Of a DNA stretch of 64,000 nt, positions 22,458 through 33,752 are shown piece after piece. Made by a program: the position numbers and the translations under genes. Source of the stretch: Bdellovibrionales bacterium. Lineage in GTDB: Bacteria; Bdellovibrionota; UBA1018; CAIMNF01. Under the pieces are notes generated by a model, which was given only the letters and a program-made list of their open reading frames with translations, had not been told where the DNA came from and did not search any database. Location: positions 496,001 to 560,000 of the forward strand of contig CANNBJ010000001.1 in NCBI GenBank assembly GCA_947502835.1, read 5' to 3'. Positions within the stretch are counted from its first letter, which is position 1. The number at the start of each line of letters is the position of its first letter.

Positions 22458-23447
22458 TCAGAAGGGACTTGCCGATTTTGTCCCGTCAGGGGGCAGAGTT
22501 TTCATCATCGGTGCGGGATGCGACTCCTGGATGGATTCGAAGGCCTTTGGCCCGAAGACCCAAACACTGTGAAGGGGCGAGCGGAAGACACGGTTTGAGA
22601 TTCCGCCCGTCAGGATCTTATGCCATTCCGGCCGCGTAGAGGTCATTCCGATCAAGGAGGCGTGCTCCGCAGCGGCTGCGCGCTGAATGGCCATGGAAAC
22701 ATCCCCCGTACCCTCTTCGATCAGGACCCGTGCGCGAATGGACGCCTCGCTGGCAAGCTTCACCCAGGCCTCCCCCTCCGAAATCAGGGACTCCTTCATC
22801 ACCTTCCAATAGGCTTCCGGAAGGTATGCCCCGACACCCGTGAGGCTCATACCTGTGACGAAGTTCGGATACTCGGCGACATGAAGAATCACCACCTCAG
22901 GATGAATCGGCCCGATCTGCCGGAGAAACTTGAGGAACGCCAGTCGTGAGGAATCCGAGAAATCCGTGGCAAACAAAACCCGTCGCCAAGTGTCGTGATG
23001 ATCGGGAGTGCGCCCGAAGAAGACCACGGGGACAGGCGAGGATAGAAGCACTTTCTCGGCAAAACTCCCCATCACCGTCCTGCTCAACCATTTTCGCCCA
23101 TGGGAGGATACGAGGATCAGATCCGCCTTGGAATCCCTCGCGTAATCCACGAGGGTGTGTGCGGGATGCTGGATCAGGTCCCGGTGCTCCCAGATGACCT
23201 TGACCCGCACGGGCACACCGAGGTTCATCCTCCGCACACGATCATGGAGAAGATCGTAGGCCCGGGTATACACGTGGTTGAAGCCGGGATTCTGATCCGA
23301 GTCCGCGATCACATGCACCGCCTCCACCCGGGACCCGAGTTTCCGTGCCCAGTTCTTCAACTCCTTCAAGGCAAATCGCGAGGGCTCGAGTCCTTTTTCA
23401 AAAGGATCCACCGCCAGAATCACATTGCATTTGCGAATCTCATCCAT
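22458..23447 (-). CDS. Tandem universal stress protein (UspA family)
   Basis: 329 residues containing two Usp domains. The first half contains ILAVDPFEKG... and ADLILVSSHGRKWLSRTVMGSFAEKVL, close to the ATP-binding G-x2-G-x9-G(S/T) motif. The second half begins VLFATDFSDSS and has a more degenerate nucleotide site (AAAAEHASLIGMTS). Usp proteins act in survival under starvation, hypoxia and other stress. It overlaps ppsA by 8 bp, so the two are transcribed and translated together. Confidence 0.88.
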   Translation of the reverse strand: MDEIRKCNVILAVDPFEKGLEPSRFALKELKNWARKLGSRVEAVHVIADSDQNPGFNHVYTRAYDLLHDRVRRMNLGVPVRVKVIWEHRDLIQHPAHTLVDYARDSKADLILVSSHGRKWLSRTVMGSFAEKVLLSSPVPVVFFGRTPDHHDTWRRVLFATDFSDSSRLAFLKFLRQIGPIHPEVVILHVAEYPNFVTGMSLTGVGAYLPEAYWKVMKESLISEGEAWVKLASEASIRARVLIEEGTGDVSMAIQRAAAAEHASLIGMTSTRPEWHKILTGGISNRVFRSPLHSVWVFGPKAFESIQESHPAPMMKTLPPDGTKSASPF

Positions 23448-25833
23448 TCCAACCTCCTTTTTCGGCGCTCTCCAAAACGGGTCTGATGCGCACCATGGAA
23501 TCCGGACTCAGGGAAACACTTGAAATGCCCTCACGGACCAGAAATGCAGCAAAGTCCGGATGGTCACTGGGCGCTTGTCCGCAGATTCCGATGGGTTTCC
23601 CCTCGGAGCGAACCGTCCCGATCACCTCGCGAATCATGGAAAGCACTGCAGGATCCTGTTCGTGAAACAGCGTGGAGAGAACCACCGAATCGCGGTCGAC
23701 CCCGAGAATTAATTGTGTGAGATCATTTGACCCGATGGAGAATCCGTCATACTCCCGGAGAAACTCGCGTGCGAGGATGACATTGGACGGAATCTCGCAC
23801 ATCATCCAGATCTCAAGATCCGCATCCCCCCTTTGAAGACCGTTTTTCTTGAGCTCCTGAATCGCGTTCCGCGAATCCTCAAGTGTCCTGACAAAAGGAA
23901 CCATGATCTTGAGGTTCTGGAGCCCCATCTCCATTCGGACTCTCTTGATTGCCTCACATTCAAGACGGAATCCGGCTGCGAAGGAGGGGTGCGAATAACG
24001 AAATGCCCCGCGGAAGCCGAGCATCGGGTTTTCTTCCGTCTCCTCAAACTCCTTGCCTCCGAGAAGGCCGGAGTATTCATTGGACTTGAAGTCGCTCAGC
24101 CTGAGAATGACAGGCTTCGGGTGAAAGGCGGCTGCAATGGTTCCAATCTCCTCGCTCAGTTTCCGGATGTAGTAGTCTTCCTTTTTTTCAAAACCTTTTG
24201 TCCTCTTTTCGATTTCGAGCCTTGTCTCCGGGTCCTTGACATCCTCGAACCGAACCAACGCCATCGGGTGAATCCCCACCCCCGAACTGATCATGAACTC
24301 CATCCTGGCCAGACCCACGCCATCATTCGGCAACTGTGCATGCCGTAAGGCCCCGTCGCTTCTTCCGATGTTCAGCATCACACGGGTACGAAGGGGAGCA
24401 CTGCCTTCCCATTCAATCCTCTCGGTTCGAAATCGCGCCACACCTTGGTACACAAATCCTTCCTCACCCTCTGCTGTTGAAACCGTGATCCATTCCCCGG
24501 TCTTGATCTTTCGGGTTCCATCTCCTGTACCGACCACTGCGGGGATTCCGCTTTCCCTTGAAATGATCGCCGCATGGCATGTTCGTCCGCCACGATCCGT
24601 GACAATGGCAGCTGCCCGTTTTAATGCCGGTTCCCAATCGGGGTCCGTCTTCGTGGTCACAAGGATCTCGGAATCCGAAAGTTCCTGAAGATCCTCGACA
24701 GACTCAATCACCCGGGCCACCCCCGTCCGGATCGAGACCCCCACGCTCCTTCCCTTGGCAAGCACAGGCCCCGCCTCTTCAATGAAATAACGGGCCTGAG
24801 CGGTGCCTTCTTTCTTCGCCCGGCTGTGGACGGTTTCCGGTCGAGCCTGGACCAAGAACATCGCACCCGTGAGTCCGTCCCTTGCCCACTCAATGTCCAT
24901 CGGGGTCTTGTGTTCCCTCCTGCGGCTGAAATGATTTTCGACAAGAACACCCGCTCTCGCAAGATCAAGAACCTCATCGTCAAGAAGACTCAATCGGGAA
25001 CGATCCTCTTGAGGAACCTCAACCCCGATCAATGAGGATTTGTGTACCGGATCATACACAAGGCTTTGCTCTTTGCTCCCGATCTCCCGCTTCAAGATGG
25101 GTCTGAATCCGCTGCGGAGGGTTTTCTTGAACACAATGAATTCGTCCGGATTGACAGCGCCCTTCACCAGGGTTTCGCCAAGCCCATAGGTGGAGTTGAT
25201 GACCACCACATCGGGGAAGCCCGTTTCCGGATCGAGAGTGAACATCACACCGGAGACACTCAAATCGGAGCGCACCATCTCCTGAATTCCGACGGACAGG
25301 GAAACCGAGGCATGGGCAAATCCACGCGAGTTCCGATAGGAGATGGCGCGATCATTGAAAAGCGAAGCAAAACAACGGACCATGGCGTGAAGAACTTCTC
25401 TGCTTCCTTCCACATTGAGAAAACTGTCTTGTTGGCCTGCAAAACTTGCATGAGGAAGATCCTCGGCGGTTGCACTGCTGCGTACGGCAACATCCATCCT
25501 ACCCTTCCGGATTCCGGAAAGGGTTTCATAGGCATGCAAAACTTCCTGCACGACAGAATCCGGAACTCTTCCCTCCTGGAATGCATTCCTGACCCTTGCC
25601 CCCCACTCGGTCTTCGGGGAGGGATCCGCCACCAGGGACTCGAGTCGATTGTGTCGCAAGAAATCATGGTAGGCATCCACGCTGATGGCAAAACCATCCG
25701 GCACTCGGATCTTTTCTTTGCGCAAGGCCTGGGTGAGCTCGCCGATTGAGGCATTTTTTCCCCCGACACGGTCAAGATCCTCAAGCCTGAGTGAGTCAAA
25801 CCAACGAATGTATTTGGTATTCTCTCTTTTCAA
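23440..25833 (-). CDS. ppsA: Phosphoenolpyruvate synthase
   Basis: PpsA converts pyruvate and ATP to PEP, AMP and phosphate. The N-terminal ATP-grasp domain has VGGKNASIGEL and VRSSATAED. The swivelling phospho-histidine domain has GGRTCHAAIISRE with the catalytic His, and the C-terminal PEP/pyruvate barrel has GSNDLTQL. The start is TTG 25833, preceded by AGGAGGTGGCACA; the track start at 25890 lies upstream of this ribosome site. About 797 residues, the normal size. A candidate sigma-54 promoter lies 31-46 bp upstream. It heads the ppsA-usp-hsp20-ftsH block. Confidence 0.95.
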   Translation of the reverse strand: MKRENTKYIRWFDSLRLEDLDRVGGKNASIGELTQALRKEKIRVPDGFAISVDAYHDFLRHNRLESLVADPSPKTEWGARVRNAFQEGRVPDSVVQEVLHAYETLSGIRKGRMDVAVRSSATAEDLPHASFAGQQDSFLNVEGSREVLHAMVRCFASLFNDRAISYRNSRGFAHASVSLSVGIQEMVRSDLSVSGVMFTLDPETGFPDVVVINSTYGLGETLVKGAVNPDEFIVFKKTLRSGFRPILKREIGSKEQSLVYDPVHKSSLIGVEVPQEDRSRLSLLDDEVLDLARAGVLVENHFSRRREHKTPMDIEWARDGLTGAMFLVQARPETVHSRAKKEGTAQARYFIEEAGPVLAKGRSVGVSIRTGVARVIESVEDLQELSDSEILVTTKTDPDWEPALKRAAAIVTDRGGRTCHAAIISRESGIPAVVGTGDGTRKIKTGEWITVSTAEGEEGFVYQGVARFRTERIEWEGSAPLRTRVMLNIGRSDGALRHAQLPNDGVGLARMEFMISSGVGIHPMALVRFEDVKDPETRLEIEKRTKGFEKKEDYYIRKLSEEIGTIAAAFHPKPVILRLSDFKSNEYSGLLGGKEFEETEENPMLGFRGAFRYSHPSFAAGFRLECEAIKRVRMEMGLQNLKIMVPFVRTLEDSRNAIQELKKNGLQRGDADLEIWMMCEIPSNVILAREFLREYDGFSIGSNDLTQLILGVDRDSVVLSTLFHEQDPAVLSMIREVIGTVRSEGKPIGICGQAPSDHPDFAAFLVREGISSVSLSPDSMVRIRPVLESAEKGGWNG

Positions 25834-25863
25834 TGTGCCACCTCCTGCCTTCCGCCCTCTGTA

Positions 25864-25880
25864 AGCAAAGAGCACACCAA
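25864..25880 (-). promoter_or_regulatory. Candidate sigma-54 promoter of ppsA-usp
   Basis: Minus-strand TTGGTGTGCTCTTTGCT has GG-N10-GC spacing and a TTGCT -12 element. The expected start site, about 12 nt after the GC, leaves a leader of roughly 20 nt containing the AGGAGG ribosome site before the TTG start. Confidence 0.55.
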
Positions 25881-25897
25881 AGGAAACCATGGATCAG

Positions 25898-29136: not shown

Positions 29137-29514
29137 ATGGAGAATTCCCTGCACTACAGAATCGGCATTTTTTGGATTGTGATTTTTCTGATTTTCGCGA
29201 CCCTGAGATCCGCTCACGCAGCAACACCCCCGCCGGATCCGGGCTTCAGGGTCGAGTTCATGGGGAAGTCGTATGAGGTTTGGAAAGAACCGAGCCTGAA
29301 TGTGATCAAAGTGACCACGGATCGCATCAACGGGCCCATCAGGGATGAGCTGATTCTCAAAATCAAACGGGAGCATCTTCCCCCGCGGCACATTCACGTG
29401 AGACTCAGTGGCACCACTCCAGAATCCATGATTTACACAGGAATTCTTCCGTCCCGTGTTCTGTGGCAGGGCAATCTGAGCATTGAAATCGGAACTCCGG
29501 CGATTCGCCGCTAA
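29137..29514 (+). CDS. Hypothetical exported protein, about 125 residues
   Basis: The start at ATG 29137 gives a signal peptide (MENSLHYRIGIFWIVIFLIFATLRSAHA), whereas the track start at 28936 would run through the upstream terminators. The mature part of about 97 residues is beta-rich with two basic stretches. No family was recognised. A sigma-54-type promoter sits just upstream, and a PEP-synthase-like gene follows, so it may belong to the same stress regulon. No Shine-Dalgarno sequence is obvious. Confidence 0.55.
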   Translation: MENSLHYRIGIFWIVIFLIFATLRSAHAATPPPDPGFRVEFMGKSYEVWKEPSLNVIKVTTDRINGPIRDELILKIKREHLPPRHIHVRLSGTTPESMIYTGILPSRVLWQGNLSIEIGTPAIRR

Positions 29515-29517
29515 GGG

Positions 29518-29551
29518 TTTCCAAACGCCTTGAATTTGATAGACTCAGGGC
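29518..29551 (+). promoter_or_regulatory. Predicted leaderless promoter of the PEP-synthase-like gene
   Basis: TTTCCA (29518-29523), 16 bp, TAGACT (29540-29545), then 6 nt to ATG 29552. Confidence 0.4.
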
Positions 29552-30757
29552 ATGCACGGGATCTCCCCCAAATTCAAGTTCCTCGAAGATGCCGAGTCGC
29601 TCCTGCCACGAGGCTCGATCCCGCAGTACCGTTTTCTCTCCCTGCATGAGCCACCCTCGTCCCTTCCCGAAGAATGGAAGGGCATGGAGTGCATCCTCAG
29701 ATCGGGACTTTGGTCTGAGGGAGGCGGGAAGGAAATGCTAAGCGGCAAAAGCGTCAGCACAGGGGGCATTAGATCCCTCGAGGAACTTCAGGCCGCCTAT
29801 CAAGCTGCACTCTCCCAACCCGGGCTTCAAACACTCCTTCTCCAGGAAGAAATCCAGTGGGAGCGGCATCTGACCCTGTGGGTGGAAGATCACTTCATGT
29901 TTGTGCAGGAACGAGATCGGGAGGGAAGATCAAAATCCTTCTACTCCGACCCTCTCACGCGTTCGGGGGCCATGGATGCTCTTCGGGAAATCGATGCTTT
30001 TCTTGATCCATTGGAGCCGCTCCTGAGACAAAACCCCCACTGGCTTCTTGAGATCGGGAGCGTTGGATCCACCCTGTACCTCTTCCAAATCCAGGTGGCA
30101 TCCCACCACTTCCTGGAGCATGTGTTTTCCTCGGATCTTGCGTTTCGACTGGTCCTTGGCCGAAATCGTTTTCAACGGCTTGGAAACCTTCCCTCTCTGC
30201 TCCGGACGGAGTGGAATGCATTCCATTTCAGGCGACGCCTCCGGGGGGAACCCCCGCGCTTCTCCGATGTGTTTTCGAACTGGGAATTCCTGTTCCACTA
30301 TTTCAGGATTTTTTGCATGACCCGGAGAATCGTGCCCGACGCAGGAAGCTTTTCGGAGTTCCTTTCCTTGGCCCACGATAGAACCACTCATTGGGGATCG
30401 CTGGTTCACGAGCACCTCTCGATCAGTCGTGTTCTCCGCAAATCCGAGTCTGATCCCGAGATGGAAACGGCCTTCAACACCTCCGGGCCGCTCTACATTG
30501 GAAAAGGCATCCTCTGTGGCACCTTCGGCGTGGATATTTTTTGGCAGGAGGAACCTGATGTTCAGTTGATCCATTCCATAAAGCGGCCGAAAGCGATCCT
30601 TACTCCGAGCGTCAGCATTCTGTCACACTTCGCCCTTGCGTGTGCCGAGCTTGGCGTGGGACTCGTAATGGGACTTGAAAGCGAACCAGGAAATCTTTTT
30701 CAGCATAACGCAGAGCTTCAAATAGATTTCCATAAGCGTTCCATTACGCTACGATGA
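29552..30757 (+). CDS. Compact PEP-synthase-like protein (ATP-grasp remnant plus His swivel domain)
   Basis: 401 residues. The C-terminal 70 residues follow the phospho-histidine swivel of PEP synthase: AILTPSVSILSHFALACAELG aligns in order with AIVTDRGGRTCHAAIISRESG of PpsA, keeping the His. Residues about 45-90 resemble the ATP-grasp VRSS...ED segment (ILRSGLWSEGGG), and LLEIGSVGSTLYLFQIQ resembles the closing strand (EWxxDGxLxLVQAR), but the conserved Arg is replaced by Gln. The N-terminal GGKNA lobe and the C-terminal PEP/pyruvate barrel are missing. It could be a small dikinase acting on another substrate, as rifampin phosphotransferase does, or a regulatory relic. The similarity was read by eye. 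Confidence 0.55.
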   Translation: MHGISPKFKFLEDAESLLPRGSIPQYRFLSLHEPPSSLPEEWKGMECILRSGLWSEGGGKEMLSGKSVSTGGIRSLEELQAAYQAALSQPGLQTLLLQEEIQWERHLTLWVEDHFMFVQERDREGRSKSFYSDPLTRSGAMDALREIDAFLDPLEPLLRQNPHWLLEIGSVGSTLYLFQIQVASHHFLEHVFSSDLAFRLVLGRNRFQRLGNLPSLLRTEWNAFHFRRRLRGEPPRFSDVFSNWEFLFHYFRIFCMTRRIVPDAGSFSEFLSLAHDRTTHWGSLVHEHLSISRVLRKSESDPEMETAFNTSGPLYIGKGILCGTFGVDIFWQEEPDVQLIHSIKRPKAILTPSVSILSHFALACAELGVGLVMGLESEPGNLFQHNAELQIDFHKRSITLR

Positions 30758-30772
30758 TTCGAGGAGGTTCCA

Positions 30773-30940
30773 GTGGTATTTCCGTCTCTGTTTTTCCAAA
30801 ATGACCCGGGAATCGTTTCTCAAGCCTCAGGGTTTGTGATCCTCGCGTTTTCCCTGATTTTACATCGCTTCAAGCGAATGGTCCTCCTTGCAATGAGTTT
30901 CATCGTAGCGGGATGGATTGCATTTCGAATCTTGGGATGA
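30773..30940 (+). CDS. Small two-helix membrane protein (55 residues), not in the ORF track
   Basis: A GTG start at 30773 follows a near-perfect ribosome site (GAGGAGGTTCCA) and opens a 55-codon frame ending at TGA 30938-30940. Its translation has two hydrophobic stretches (ASGFVILAFSLIL and MVLLAMSFIVAGWIAF) separated by basic HRFKR, consistent with a hairpin inner-membrane protein. It starts 15 nt after the PEP-synthase-like gene, so it is probably cotranscribed. Function unknown. Confidence 0.6.
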   Translation: MVFPSLFFQNDPGIVSQASGFVILAFSLILHRFKRMVLLAMSFIVAGWIAFRILG

Positions 30941-31002
30941 ATGGATTTATGAAATGGTGCTTCTGGTCTTTGCCGAAGTTCTGGTCTACCCTAAGTTACA
31001 TC

Positions 31003-31768: not shown

Positions 31769-32695
31769 ATGCGTGTGAGCTGCCCGAGTCTCAAGTTAAA
31801 TTTATCAACTTCCCGCGGTGTTACAAGCCCTCCCGAGCATCATGATGTAGTCCGGAAAGGCTACTTCAGTCGCAAATCCGACAGCCGAAGGATTCAGCGA
31901 TTCCAGTGCAAGACCTGTGGATTGCTCTTCTCAAGAAGTACTCTCAATCCACGCTACTATCAAAAAGCAAGGAGGATCAACGCTCCACTCTACAAGCTCC
32001 TTGTTTCCGGAGTGTCACAAAATCGAGCTGCTTTGATCCTGGGAGTGAGCCCCTCCACGATCGCAAGGAGGTTTATGTTTTTGGCGGGACAGGCGAGCCT
32101 GTCTCAATCAAGACTCATTGCTCGCTTCCCACAAAGGTCCATCGAATCCATACAGTTCGACGATCTCGAGTCAAGCATTCACACGAAGTGCAAGCCCGTG
32201 AGCGTTGCTCTGGTAGTTGAGTCGAATTCACGGAAAATTTTCAGGTTTCAAGTCAATGAAATGCCTGCGAAAGGACGCTTGTCTGAGATCTCAAGAAAGA
32301 AATACGGTCCTCGCAAAGACCAAAGAGGCAGGGGTTGGAATCGACTTATGAAATCCATGAGGATGTTGATCAAGGAGGATGGCGCAGTCACATCGGATGA
32401 GAATCCTCACTATCCAAAATGGGTGAGAAAGCATTTACCAAATGCTAAGCACATCCGGATCCCCGGAGGTCGGGGTGCGATCACGGGGCAAGGTGAACTT
32501 CGGGACAAGCGGTTTGATCCCATGTTTTCGCTGAACCATACTTGTGCCATGCTCCGAGCGAACATCAATCGGCTTTTTCGGCGAACCTGGTGCACAAGCA
32601 AAAAAATTGAACGACTGAGGGACCACATTGCTCTCTATGTGGATTTCCATAACCGGAAATTAATGGAGTCAGGTGCAATCTTCGAGGGCAGTTAG
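31769..32695 (+). CDS. DDE-type transposase (IS1-like domain order)
   Basis: 308 residues. The N-terminus has a partial zinc ribbon (QCKTCGLLFS; the partner cysteines are not evident) followed by a helix-turn-helix (GVSQNRAALILGVSPSTIARRF). The catalytic region has a candidate first Asp in IQFDDLES, a second in TSDENPHYPKW, and the conserved tail FSLNHTCAMLRANINRLFRRTW. The frame is intact and ends within the right inverted repeat. The missing ribbon half raises the possibility that the element is weakly active or decaying. The start is uncertain. Confidence 0.82.
   Translation: MRVSCPSLKLNLSTSRGVTSPPEHHDVVRKGYFSRKSDSRRIQRFQCKTCGLLFSRSTLNPRYYQKARRINAPLYKLLVSGVSQNRAALILGVSPSTIARRFMFLAGQASLSQSRLIARFPQRSIESIQFDDLESSIHTKCKPVSVALVVESNSRKIFRFQVNEMPAKGRLSEISRKKYGPRKDQRGRGWNRLMKSMRMLIKEDGAVTSDENPHYPKWVRKHLPNAKHIRIPGGRGAITGQGELRDKRFDPMFSLNHTCAMLRANINRLFRRTWCTSKKIERLRDHIALYVDFHNRKLMESGAIFEGS
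32672..32695. repeat. Right terminal inverted repeat of the IS, overlapping the transposase stop
   Basis: GGTGCAATCTTCGAGGGCAG-TTAG encodes the transposase C-terminus (GAIFEGS, stop TAG) and is the exact complement of the left end. Confidence 0.9.
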
Positions 32696-32699
32696 GGAA

Positions 32700-33752
32700 C
32701 TATTTGCCGCCGCCATCCCCCGAAATGAAATTCTTCAACCATCCTTCAAACTCAGACACCTGCAACACAGCAACGGAATTGGACTCGATCGTTATGGAGG
32801 GATCATAGTAGCTAAACCCCACCACCACACCGTCCGGATTGTAAAGCACTGCAAAGTGTCCTGGATTCTCAGCCTTCAGAGCGGCCACCGTGTAAAACCC
32901 GGAGCCTGACGCTTTCTGAACAGCAAGATCCATAACATAAATAGAATCAGAGAGCGCAGGATCTGATCCACCTGTCACAAAAGACCAGGCTTTTTGAACC
33001 GATGAAACCGTATAATCATTTGGATCCACCGACAGTGTGGCAGGAGTGGATCTCGTTGTGCTTTGAACTTTTCTAATCATCGCAAGATTATTCTGGAGAG
33101 TTTTACTGTCATAATCCTCGTGGAAAACAATGGAATCCACTCGGTCTATTTCATCCGACTGAAGAAGAGAAGCATCCGTCACAGACAAATATACACTCGT
33201 TGATTTTGGATCAAAAGACTCAACACAATTTGCGGGAGCCATAATGTACTGCTCAGTTACTAGGACTCCTACACAATACTCGCCCTTGTCTGAAGCGATT
33301 AAAACCATTTCTTGCATCTGTGCGCCTTTGGAGTCTGTGCCCCCCTTCATCCCCATCACTGCTCCAGTCGTACCACCAGTTGTTGAATCACCTGTAGTTG
33401 AAGTGGAGCTGTCTCCAGTGGTGGAGGTAGAGTCGCCGGAGCTCGAGGAAAAACCACCAGAGGTGCCGGTAGTACCAGAGGTGCCGGTAGTACCAGAGGT
33501 GCCGGTAGTACCAGAGGTGCCGGTAGTACCAGAGGTGCCGGTAGTACCAGAGGTGCCGGTAGTTGATGTGGAGCTGCTTCCTGTGGAAGCATCCGAGGAG
33601 CCAGAACGCTCCGCTATGGAGGTGTCGGGCTCTGCAACCCGAACTGAAACTGAACAACCGGTGAGTGCAATGAAGAACACGAGTGCCCAAAGTCCGCGCG
33701 CCACTTTGTCCGTGTGAATCAACATCATGCTCAAACCAAGACTCTGTTTCAT
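32700..33752 (-). CDS. Lipoprotein with degenerate trypsin-like domain and TSGTTG repeats
   Basis: Lipobox LTGC follows a hydrophobic signal (WALVFFIALTGC), so the mature protein starts with a lipidated Cys. Residues about 60-130 are a low-complexity Thr/Ser/Gly linker with six-residue TSGTTG repeats. The C-terminal 210 residues resemble a trypsin-fold protease: CVGVLVTEQYIMAPANCV matches CGGSLI...LTAAHCV with the catalytic His replaced by Asn, and NNLAMIRK matches NDIALLK with Asp replaced by Asn. No GDSGGP is present. It is therefore probably a non-catalytic binding protein. A TATAAT box lies upstream. The 3' end is 5 bp from the IS. Confidence 0.6.
   Translation of the reverse strand: MKQSLGLSMMLIHTDKVARGLWALVFFIALTGCSVSVRVAEPDTSIAERSGSSDASTGSSSTSTTGTSGTTGTSGTTGTSGTTGTSGTTGTSGTTGTSGGFSSSSGDSTSTTGDSSTSTTGDSTTGGTTGAVMGMKGGTDSKGAQMQEMVLIASDKGEYCVGVLVTEQYIMAPANCVESFDPKSTSVYLSVTDASLLQSDEIDRVDSIVFHEDYDSKTLQNNLAMIRKVQSTTRSTPATLSVDPNDYTVSSVQKAWSFVTGGSDPALSDSIYVMDLAVQKASGSGFYTVAALKAENPGHFAVLYNPDGVVVGFSYYDPSITIESNSVAVLQVSEFEGWLKNFISGDGGGK
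33456..33563. repeat. Tandem repeat, six 18-bp units
   Basis: ACCAGAGGTGCCGGTAGT is repeated six times without change and encodes the Thr/Ser/Gly linker of the lipoprotein. Perfect identity between units suggests recent expansion or ongoing slippage. Confidence 0.95.

Follow-up and report, generated by a model that had tools for sequence, protein, structure and literature searches.

Close to a PEP synthase gene, the stretch of Bdellovibrionales DNA analysed here encodes a much smaller protein with dikinase-like parts. The stretch, referred to below as the window, is 64,000 nucleotides long (GCA_947502835.1, contig CANNBJ010000001.1), and the locus raises the question of whether so compact a protein can still pass phosphate from ATP to a histidine and, if it does, which acceptor it would serve. 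A first-pass annotation had proposed a His-containing swivel domain behind a reduced ATP-grasp-like region, coupled to a two-helix microprotein. Our literature search returned no paper on such a protein in Bdellovibrionota.

Domain order and predicted fold

The 401-aa open reading frame spans exactly 29552-30757 on the plus strand, as first annotated, and is present as a single copy in the window genome. The features discussed here are as follows.

29486-31000, unstranded: 1,515-bp cassette with just the gene pair (blastn against L125; 187 bp in the sister genome G011)
29552-30757, plus strand: barrel-less dikinase-like protein, 401 aa (open reading frame; family in ten genomes; composition)
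29552-30127, plus strand: shortened ATP-grasp domain, residues 1-192 (AlphaFold2, Foldseek, conservation)
30092-30094, plus strand: codon of Q181, an Arg in canonical dikinases (hhalign, conservation)
30128-30481, plus strand: helical middle, residues 193-310 (alignment, conservation; model confidence low at 193-242)
30482-30754, plus strand: phosphohistidine swivel domain, residues 311-401 (Pfam, family profile, Foldseek, hhalign)
30626-30628, plus strand: codon of H359, the expected phospho-accepting His, invariant (hhalign, conservation)
30761-30768, plus strand: Shine-Dalgarno sequence of the microprotein gene, GAGGAGGT (sequence)
30773-30940, plus strand: 55-aa microprotein, GTG start, beginning MVFPS (profile, alignment, hydropathy)

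The protein thus runs from an ATP-grasp fold (about residues 1-192) through a helical middle (193-310) to a phosphohistidine swivel (311-401). The swivel is matched by PF00391 at residues 333-390 with E=0.0058, under the curated Pfam cut-off; the family profile matches the swivels of large PPS/RPH-type proteins in other genomes with E down to 9.6e-8, and hhalign places it closer to RPH-type proteins (97% probability, E=2.8e-11) than to PPS/PPDK-type proteins. The PEP/pyruvate-binding barrel PF02896 has no match and the protein ends with the swivel, so that both the swivel and the missing barrel of the initial description are borne out. The ATP-binding domain PF01326 (PPDK_N) found no match at E<=1 in any of nine family members, NCBIfam and PHROGs gave no match to the window protein, and a sequence search of solved structures returned only a pyruvate kinase swivel (E 0.41). 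A phage or defence origin of the gene was rejected, there being no PADLOC or PHROGs match, and a plasmid relation was set aside with no plasmid match.

AlphaFold2, run on a nine-row alignment, gave a mean pLDDT of 75.9. The N-terminal part (1-180/192) is mostly confident, with pLDDT mostly 77-94 (ten-residue blocks 60-94, lower at 51-70 and 131-140), the swivel lies at about 74-91, and residues 193-242 are of low confidence. The top Foldseek match in the PDB is rifampin phosphotransferase (RPH; 5hv3, E 9.1e-8, probability 1.00), with 762 aligned columns that take in both end domains, followed by PPDK and then by many ATP-grasp ligases. Rigid superposition on 5hv3 is poor, and the match therefore tells which domains are present and in what order, but not how they are arranged in space. 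In hhalign the ATP-grasp half is collinear with PPS-type proteins at a level that is not significant (P=0.27); fold prediction and residue conservation are what its assignment is based on, and it is too diverged for descent from PPDK to be traced. Of the checks proposed at first pass, structure prediction recovered swivel and ATP-grasp alike, with both ends aligning to RPH, and profile searches recovered the swivel. The helical middle occupies the place of the RPH acceptor-binding domain, and F241, N243, W244, Y250 and F251 are invariant within it.

The family is rare. A single-sequence scan of 84,980 species genomes, the sole test of distribution beyond the phylum, found one full-length relative, at 38% identity, in a Bacteriovoracaceae MAG (L003) labelled Bdellovibrionota. 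Searching 369 genomes of the phylum with a two-row profile located the gene in ten, from three families: that of the window (f1), Bacteriovoracaceae (f9, eight genomes, patchily distributed) and f20. Nine members are full length and the tenth (f9, G076) is split across two contigs; the others share 27-39% identity with the window protein. The gene is absent from eleven further genomes of the window genus. Its GC content (54%) equals that of the window (53%) and differs from that of the L003 locus (38%), which implies that any transfer was not recent.

The predicted transmembrane hairpin and the proposed envelope module

The microprotein gene begins 15 nt downstream of the dikinase-like stop codon, behind the strong Shine-Dalgarno sequence. 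Its product has two hydrophobic segments flanking an HRFKR loop, and by the charge rule the loop of this hairpin would lie inside with both ends outside. In other families it matches the N-terminal 50-55 aa of proteins of 122-371 aa with a secreted tail; in the L003 relative the first 50 residues are 43% identical to the microprotein and the secreted tail follows. A hairpin profile (A4) searched over the same 369 genomes gave strong matches in eight, all enzyme-bearing, and a ninth, divergent copy beside the propeller gene of G329 was found by context, not by profile. The hairpin is thus present in 9/10 enzyme genomes versus 0/359 others (Fisher p=3e-17, ignoring common descent). This distribution, and the enclosure of both genes in one cassette, lend strong support to the coupling proposed for 30773-30940; the pair is conserved.

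Further genes keep the same company. In Bacteriovoracaceae a BamB-like propeller gene (PQQ_2, E 2e-10) is divergent from the enzyme gene and is followed by the hairpin fused to a Tyr/Pro/Gly-rich domain that is probably secreted; this domain carries CxxxC and CxxC pairs in most members and sometimes an extra 200-residue domain. A multi-helix membrane protein joins the set in three Bacteriovoracaceae genomes. The propeller is found in 9/10 enzyme genomes versus 1/359 others (p=3e-16, ignoring common descent), the one being a strong match in G011, a genome of the window genus without the enzyme. Relatedness inflates these co-occurrence statistics, yet the distribution is patchy within Bacteriovoracaceae and the family spans three bacterial families. 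The enzyme genome without hairpin and propeller is G149; since the genomes are partly MAGs, absences such as this may be assembly gaps, although both flanks of its enzyme gene are present and hold other genes. That copy (L017, G149:C80, 1155-2354) stands alone and is a possible orphan.

In the window genome the remaining parts lie together at a second locus (contig C4, L114).

L114 6785-8137, minus strand: propeller (true start probably further in)
L114 8128-8535, plus strand: Tyr/Pro-rich protein with an ordinary signal peptide
L114 8545-9369, plus strand: multi-helix membrane protein

With the hairpin beside the enzyme and the secreted domain beside the propeller, what is one protein in Bacteriovoracaceae corresponds to two genes in the window genome. 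The Tyr/Pro-rich protein of G011 likewise lacks the hairpin and carries an ordinary signal peptide (L115; alignment). Enzyme and propeller trees match in topology for the shared genomes, with the two genes unlinked in the window genome (G000) and in G329, and they group the window genome beside a Bacteriovoracaceae genus (g73) with support of 98/97 and 100/99.

The envelope set is unannotated at L114 (G000:C4, 6785-9369), L115 (G011:C52, 6276-8727) and L116 (G329:C152, 2428-4115). Its Tyr/Pro-rich secreted protein has a conserved YGxPWG...PSPY...CPxC pattern. The multi-helix protein, absent from L116, has invariant PHT, QxxHYxxQN, HNxQY and HYxxD motifs; Pfam gave no match to it, nor did Foldseek give a significant one to its structural model (64.8, low confidence). 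Transposase-like genes at 31769-32695 of the window and at L114 9724-10674 are 52% identical to each other, with a weak IS1-family match. In the window genome each half of the module has one of them downstream, and a role of these genes in moving its parts is conceivable.

Conserved and lost residues, and the case for catalysis

In the alignment of the ten genomes, K7, R50, E167, Q179 and H359 are invariant where covered and position 69 is Ser or Thr. The K-F motif (K7), the (I/V)P motif (P24), R50 and S/T69 are present in all ten, from which it follows that the N-terminal ATP-grasp lobe, at first thought to be missing, is shortened instead. By alignment with RPH-Lm, K7 corresponds to Lys22, R50 to Arg117, S69 to Thr136, E167 to Glu297, Q179 to the Gln of the Q-x-R motif and H359 to His825, with K7 and S69 assigned by eye from motif spacing. 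In RPH, Lys22, Arg117 and Thr136 position the ATP phosphates, and roles of Glu297 and His825 are likewise described (PMC4844700). Features of the ATP-grasp superfamily are therefore present both as a fold, by Foldseek on the predicted model, and as equivalents of the Lys/Arg and Glu/Gln ligands of ATP-Mg (K7, R50, E167 and Q179). Accidental invariance of five of the six chosen positions has a probability of 7e-5 if the positions were fixed beforehand, which held only in part. In the swivel, T351 (T/S in the family) lies eight residues before H359, as in the motif T/SxxGGxxxH (PMC12167813), with the GG lost.

The whole family has lost other canonical residues, namely the Arg of Q-x-R, the acidic Asp two positions ahead of the Glu (replaced by Leu or Ile at 165), the GG loop and the Arg that follows the His. 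The replacement of the key Arg by Gln noted at first pass is correct for the window protein (Q181), and the position varies among Q, H, I, V, M and N in the family. These losses make reduced catalysis, or none, possible.

We propose, with modest confidence, that the protein actively transfers phosphate from ATP to its His at the membrane, where the hairpin would be its partner, and that it serves an envelope module. What the analysis shows is the predicted fold with its domain order and conserved residues, the gene pairing, the co-occurrence and the congruent trees; catalysis, membrane location and acceptor are inferred. The shortened ATP-grasp domain would bind ATP, whose phosphate would pass to H359 of the swivel, and the helical middle, in place of a rifampin-binding domain or PEP/pyruvate barrel, would serve a different acceptor. 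The enzyme would work at the inner membrane, where the MVFPS transmembrane hairpin may be its dedicated docking site, regulator or acceptor, and the module would comprise the periplasmic BamB-like propeller, the secreted Tyr/Pro-rich protein and, in some genomes, the multi-helix membrane protein.

The family-wide losses could also be read as those of a protein that has given up catalysis and, bound to the hairpin within the same envelope module, persists as a subunit that senses nucleotides or acts as a scaffold. The strong divergence of swivel and ATP-grasp and the lack of a recognisable acceptor domain fit such a role, but a scaffold would have no need of H359, and the invariance of this His together with the ATP-site Lys, Arg, Glu and Gln, at identities of 27-39%, leads us to regard it as possible and rather unlikely.

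Candidate acceptors and relation to known dikinases

Two further proposals refine the active phosphotransferase described above, and our confidence in them overlaps with that in it. The first, which we consider unlikely, is a dikinase of the RPH or HpeHI kind whose new, perhaps hydrophobic, small-molecule substrate would be bound by the helical middle. The domain order is that of RPH, and the two-component HpeHI shows that such parts have been recombined for other acceptors (PMC12167813); against this, the middle, at about 120 aa, is far below the rifampin-binding domain in size and shows no detectable similarity, and no biosynthetic or catabolic genes are constant neighbours.

The second is a phosphohistidine relay onto a protein, either the hairpin protein or a secreted precursor joined to it. 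The restriction of the hairpin to enzyme-bearing genomes and the report that VadK is a histidine kinase interacting with proteins (PMC13400623) speak for it. By the charge rule, however, only the HRxKK loop would face the cytosol, and its His is not invariant; if the first segment spans the membrane, the strictly conserved FPS would be on the opposite face. We therefore hold a protein acceptor to be highly doubtful. A bolder scheme, in which a minimal dikinase passes phosphate from ATP via the swivelling His to the hairpin or its cargo and so controls assembly or release of the secreted Tyr/Pro-rich envelope protein in Bdellovibrionota, is likewise quite unlikely.

The nearby full-length ppsA (23440-25890, minus strand), correctly noted at first pass, lies about 3.7 kb away. 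In G011 the order of ppsA, histidine kinase, response regulator, small secreted protein and outer-membrane-type protein is kept, and 187 bp stand where the window has 29486-31000 (1,515 bp, exactly the pair; blastn); ppsA is thus an old neighbour, near by happenstance. Insertion in the window genome and loss in G011 are both compatible with the difference. That the protein is a decoy or regulator of PpsA, as suggested on account of this proximity, is barely credible, given that G011 has the ppsA neighbourhood without the pair, that the locations of the gene in other families are unrelated, no ppsA adjoining it in the stretches read, and that its distribution tracks hairpin and propeller instead.

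Other neighbours deserve mention in their own right. In G329 a sigma-54 response regulator gene ends 3 nt before the enzyme gene (L023, 4732-6144 and 6148-7338), and in the window a response regulator gene lies further upstream. A two-component system was rejected as a functional neighbour: the two regulators are not reciprocal best matches, the better G329 match of the window regulator being at another locus, and genomes without the enzyme carry orthologues 75-89% identical to the window regulator. At 32700-33752 (minus strand) the window has a lipoprotein-like frame in which a trypsin-like domain (PF00089, E 1e-8) comes after several GTSGTT-type repeats.

Comparison with known systems places the protein near several of them. 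PEP synthase and PPDK share the ATP-grasp and swivel parts and the swivel His, but have the swivel in the middle, whereas here it is at the end and the barrel is absent; without that barrel the window protein alone cannot make or use PEP as they do. RPH (PDB 5hv1-5hv6, 5fbs) has the ATP-grasp domain first, the swivel at the C-terminal end and Lys22, Arg117, Thr136, Glu297 and His825 with equivalents here. It is about 850 aa long, however, against 401 here, and in place of its rifampin-binding domain there are about 120 residues that do not match RPH models; the GG loop is absent, and no NCBIfam or Pfam membership is reached by score. The suggestion of a minimal RPH-type phosphotransferase for another acceptor hence stands for the architecture (domain order, Foldseek, and retention of most first-half-reaction residues) and falls for RPH family membership, since the rifampin-binding domain is absent. 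The phenol dikinases HpeHI, CreHI and PpsAB also join an ATP-grasp domain and a T/SxxGGxxxH swivel to another acceptor domain, and differ in having two polypeptides, a large substrate-binding domain and phenolic substrates (PMC12167813). VadK (Rv1127c) combines a PPDK-derived ATP-binding domain with a His domain, has no barrel and autophosphorylates on His (PMC13400623). By description it shares with the window protein an ATP-binding domain, a His swivel domain and the absence of the PEP/pyruvate barrel; it was recognisable enough for annotation as PPDK, its catalytic His is residue 422, and it acts on the methylcitrate cycle (PMC13400623). The much reduced ATP-grasp, the helical middle and the membrane and envelope context set the window protein apart from VadK, again by description.

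Separately, in Bacteriovoracaceae an RPH-like gene for a substrate-binding domain and swivel overlaps a cytochrome P450 gene by four bases (L035 145-1743/1740-3044; L038 1495-3090/194-1498), which looks like a small-molecule dikinase/P450 pair.

If active, the 401-residue protein would be among the smallest dikinase-type enzymes and would have a new acceptor. Together with VadK it would then show that the ATP-to-phosphohistidine half of PEP synthase and PPDK serves as a reusable module beyond carbon metabolism. These results also connect an orphan microprotein with several envelope proteins that lack annotation, as one testable set in a phylum with predatory members.
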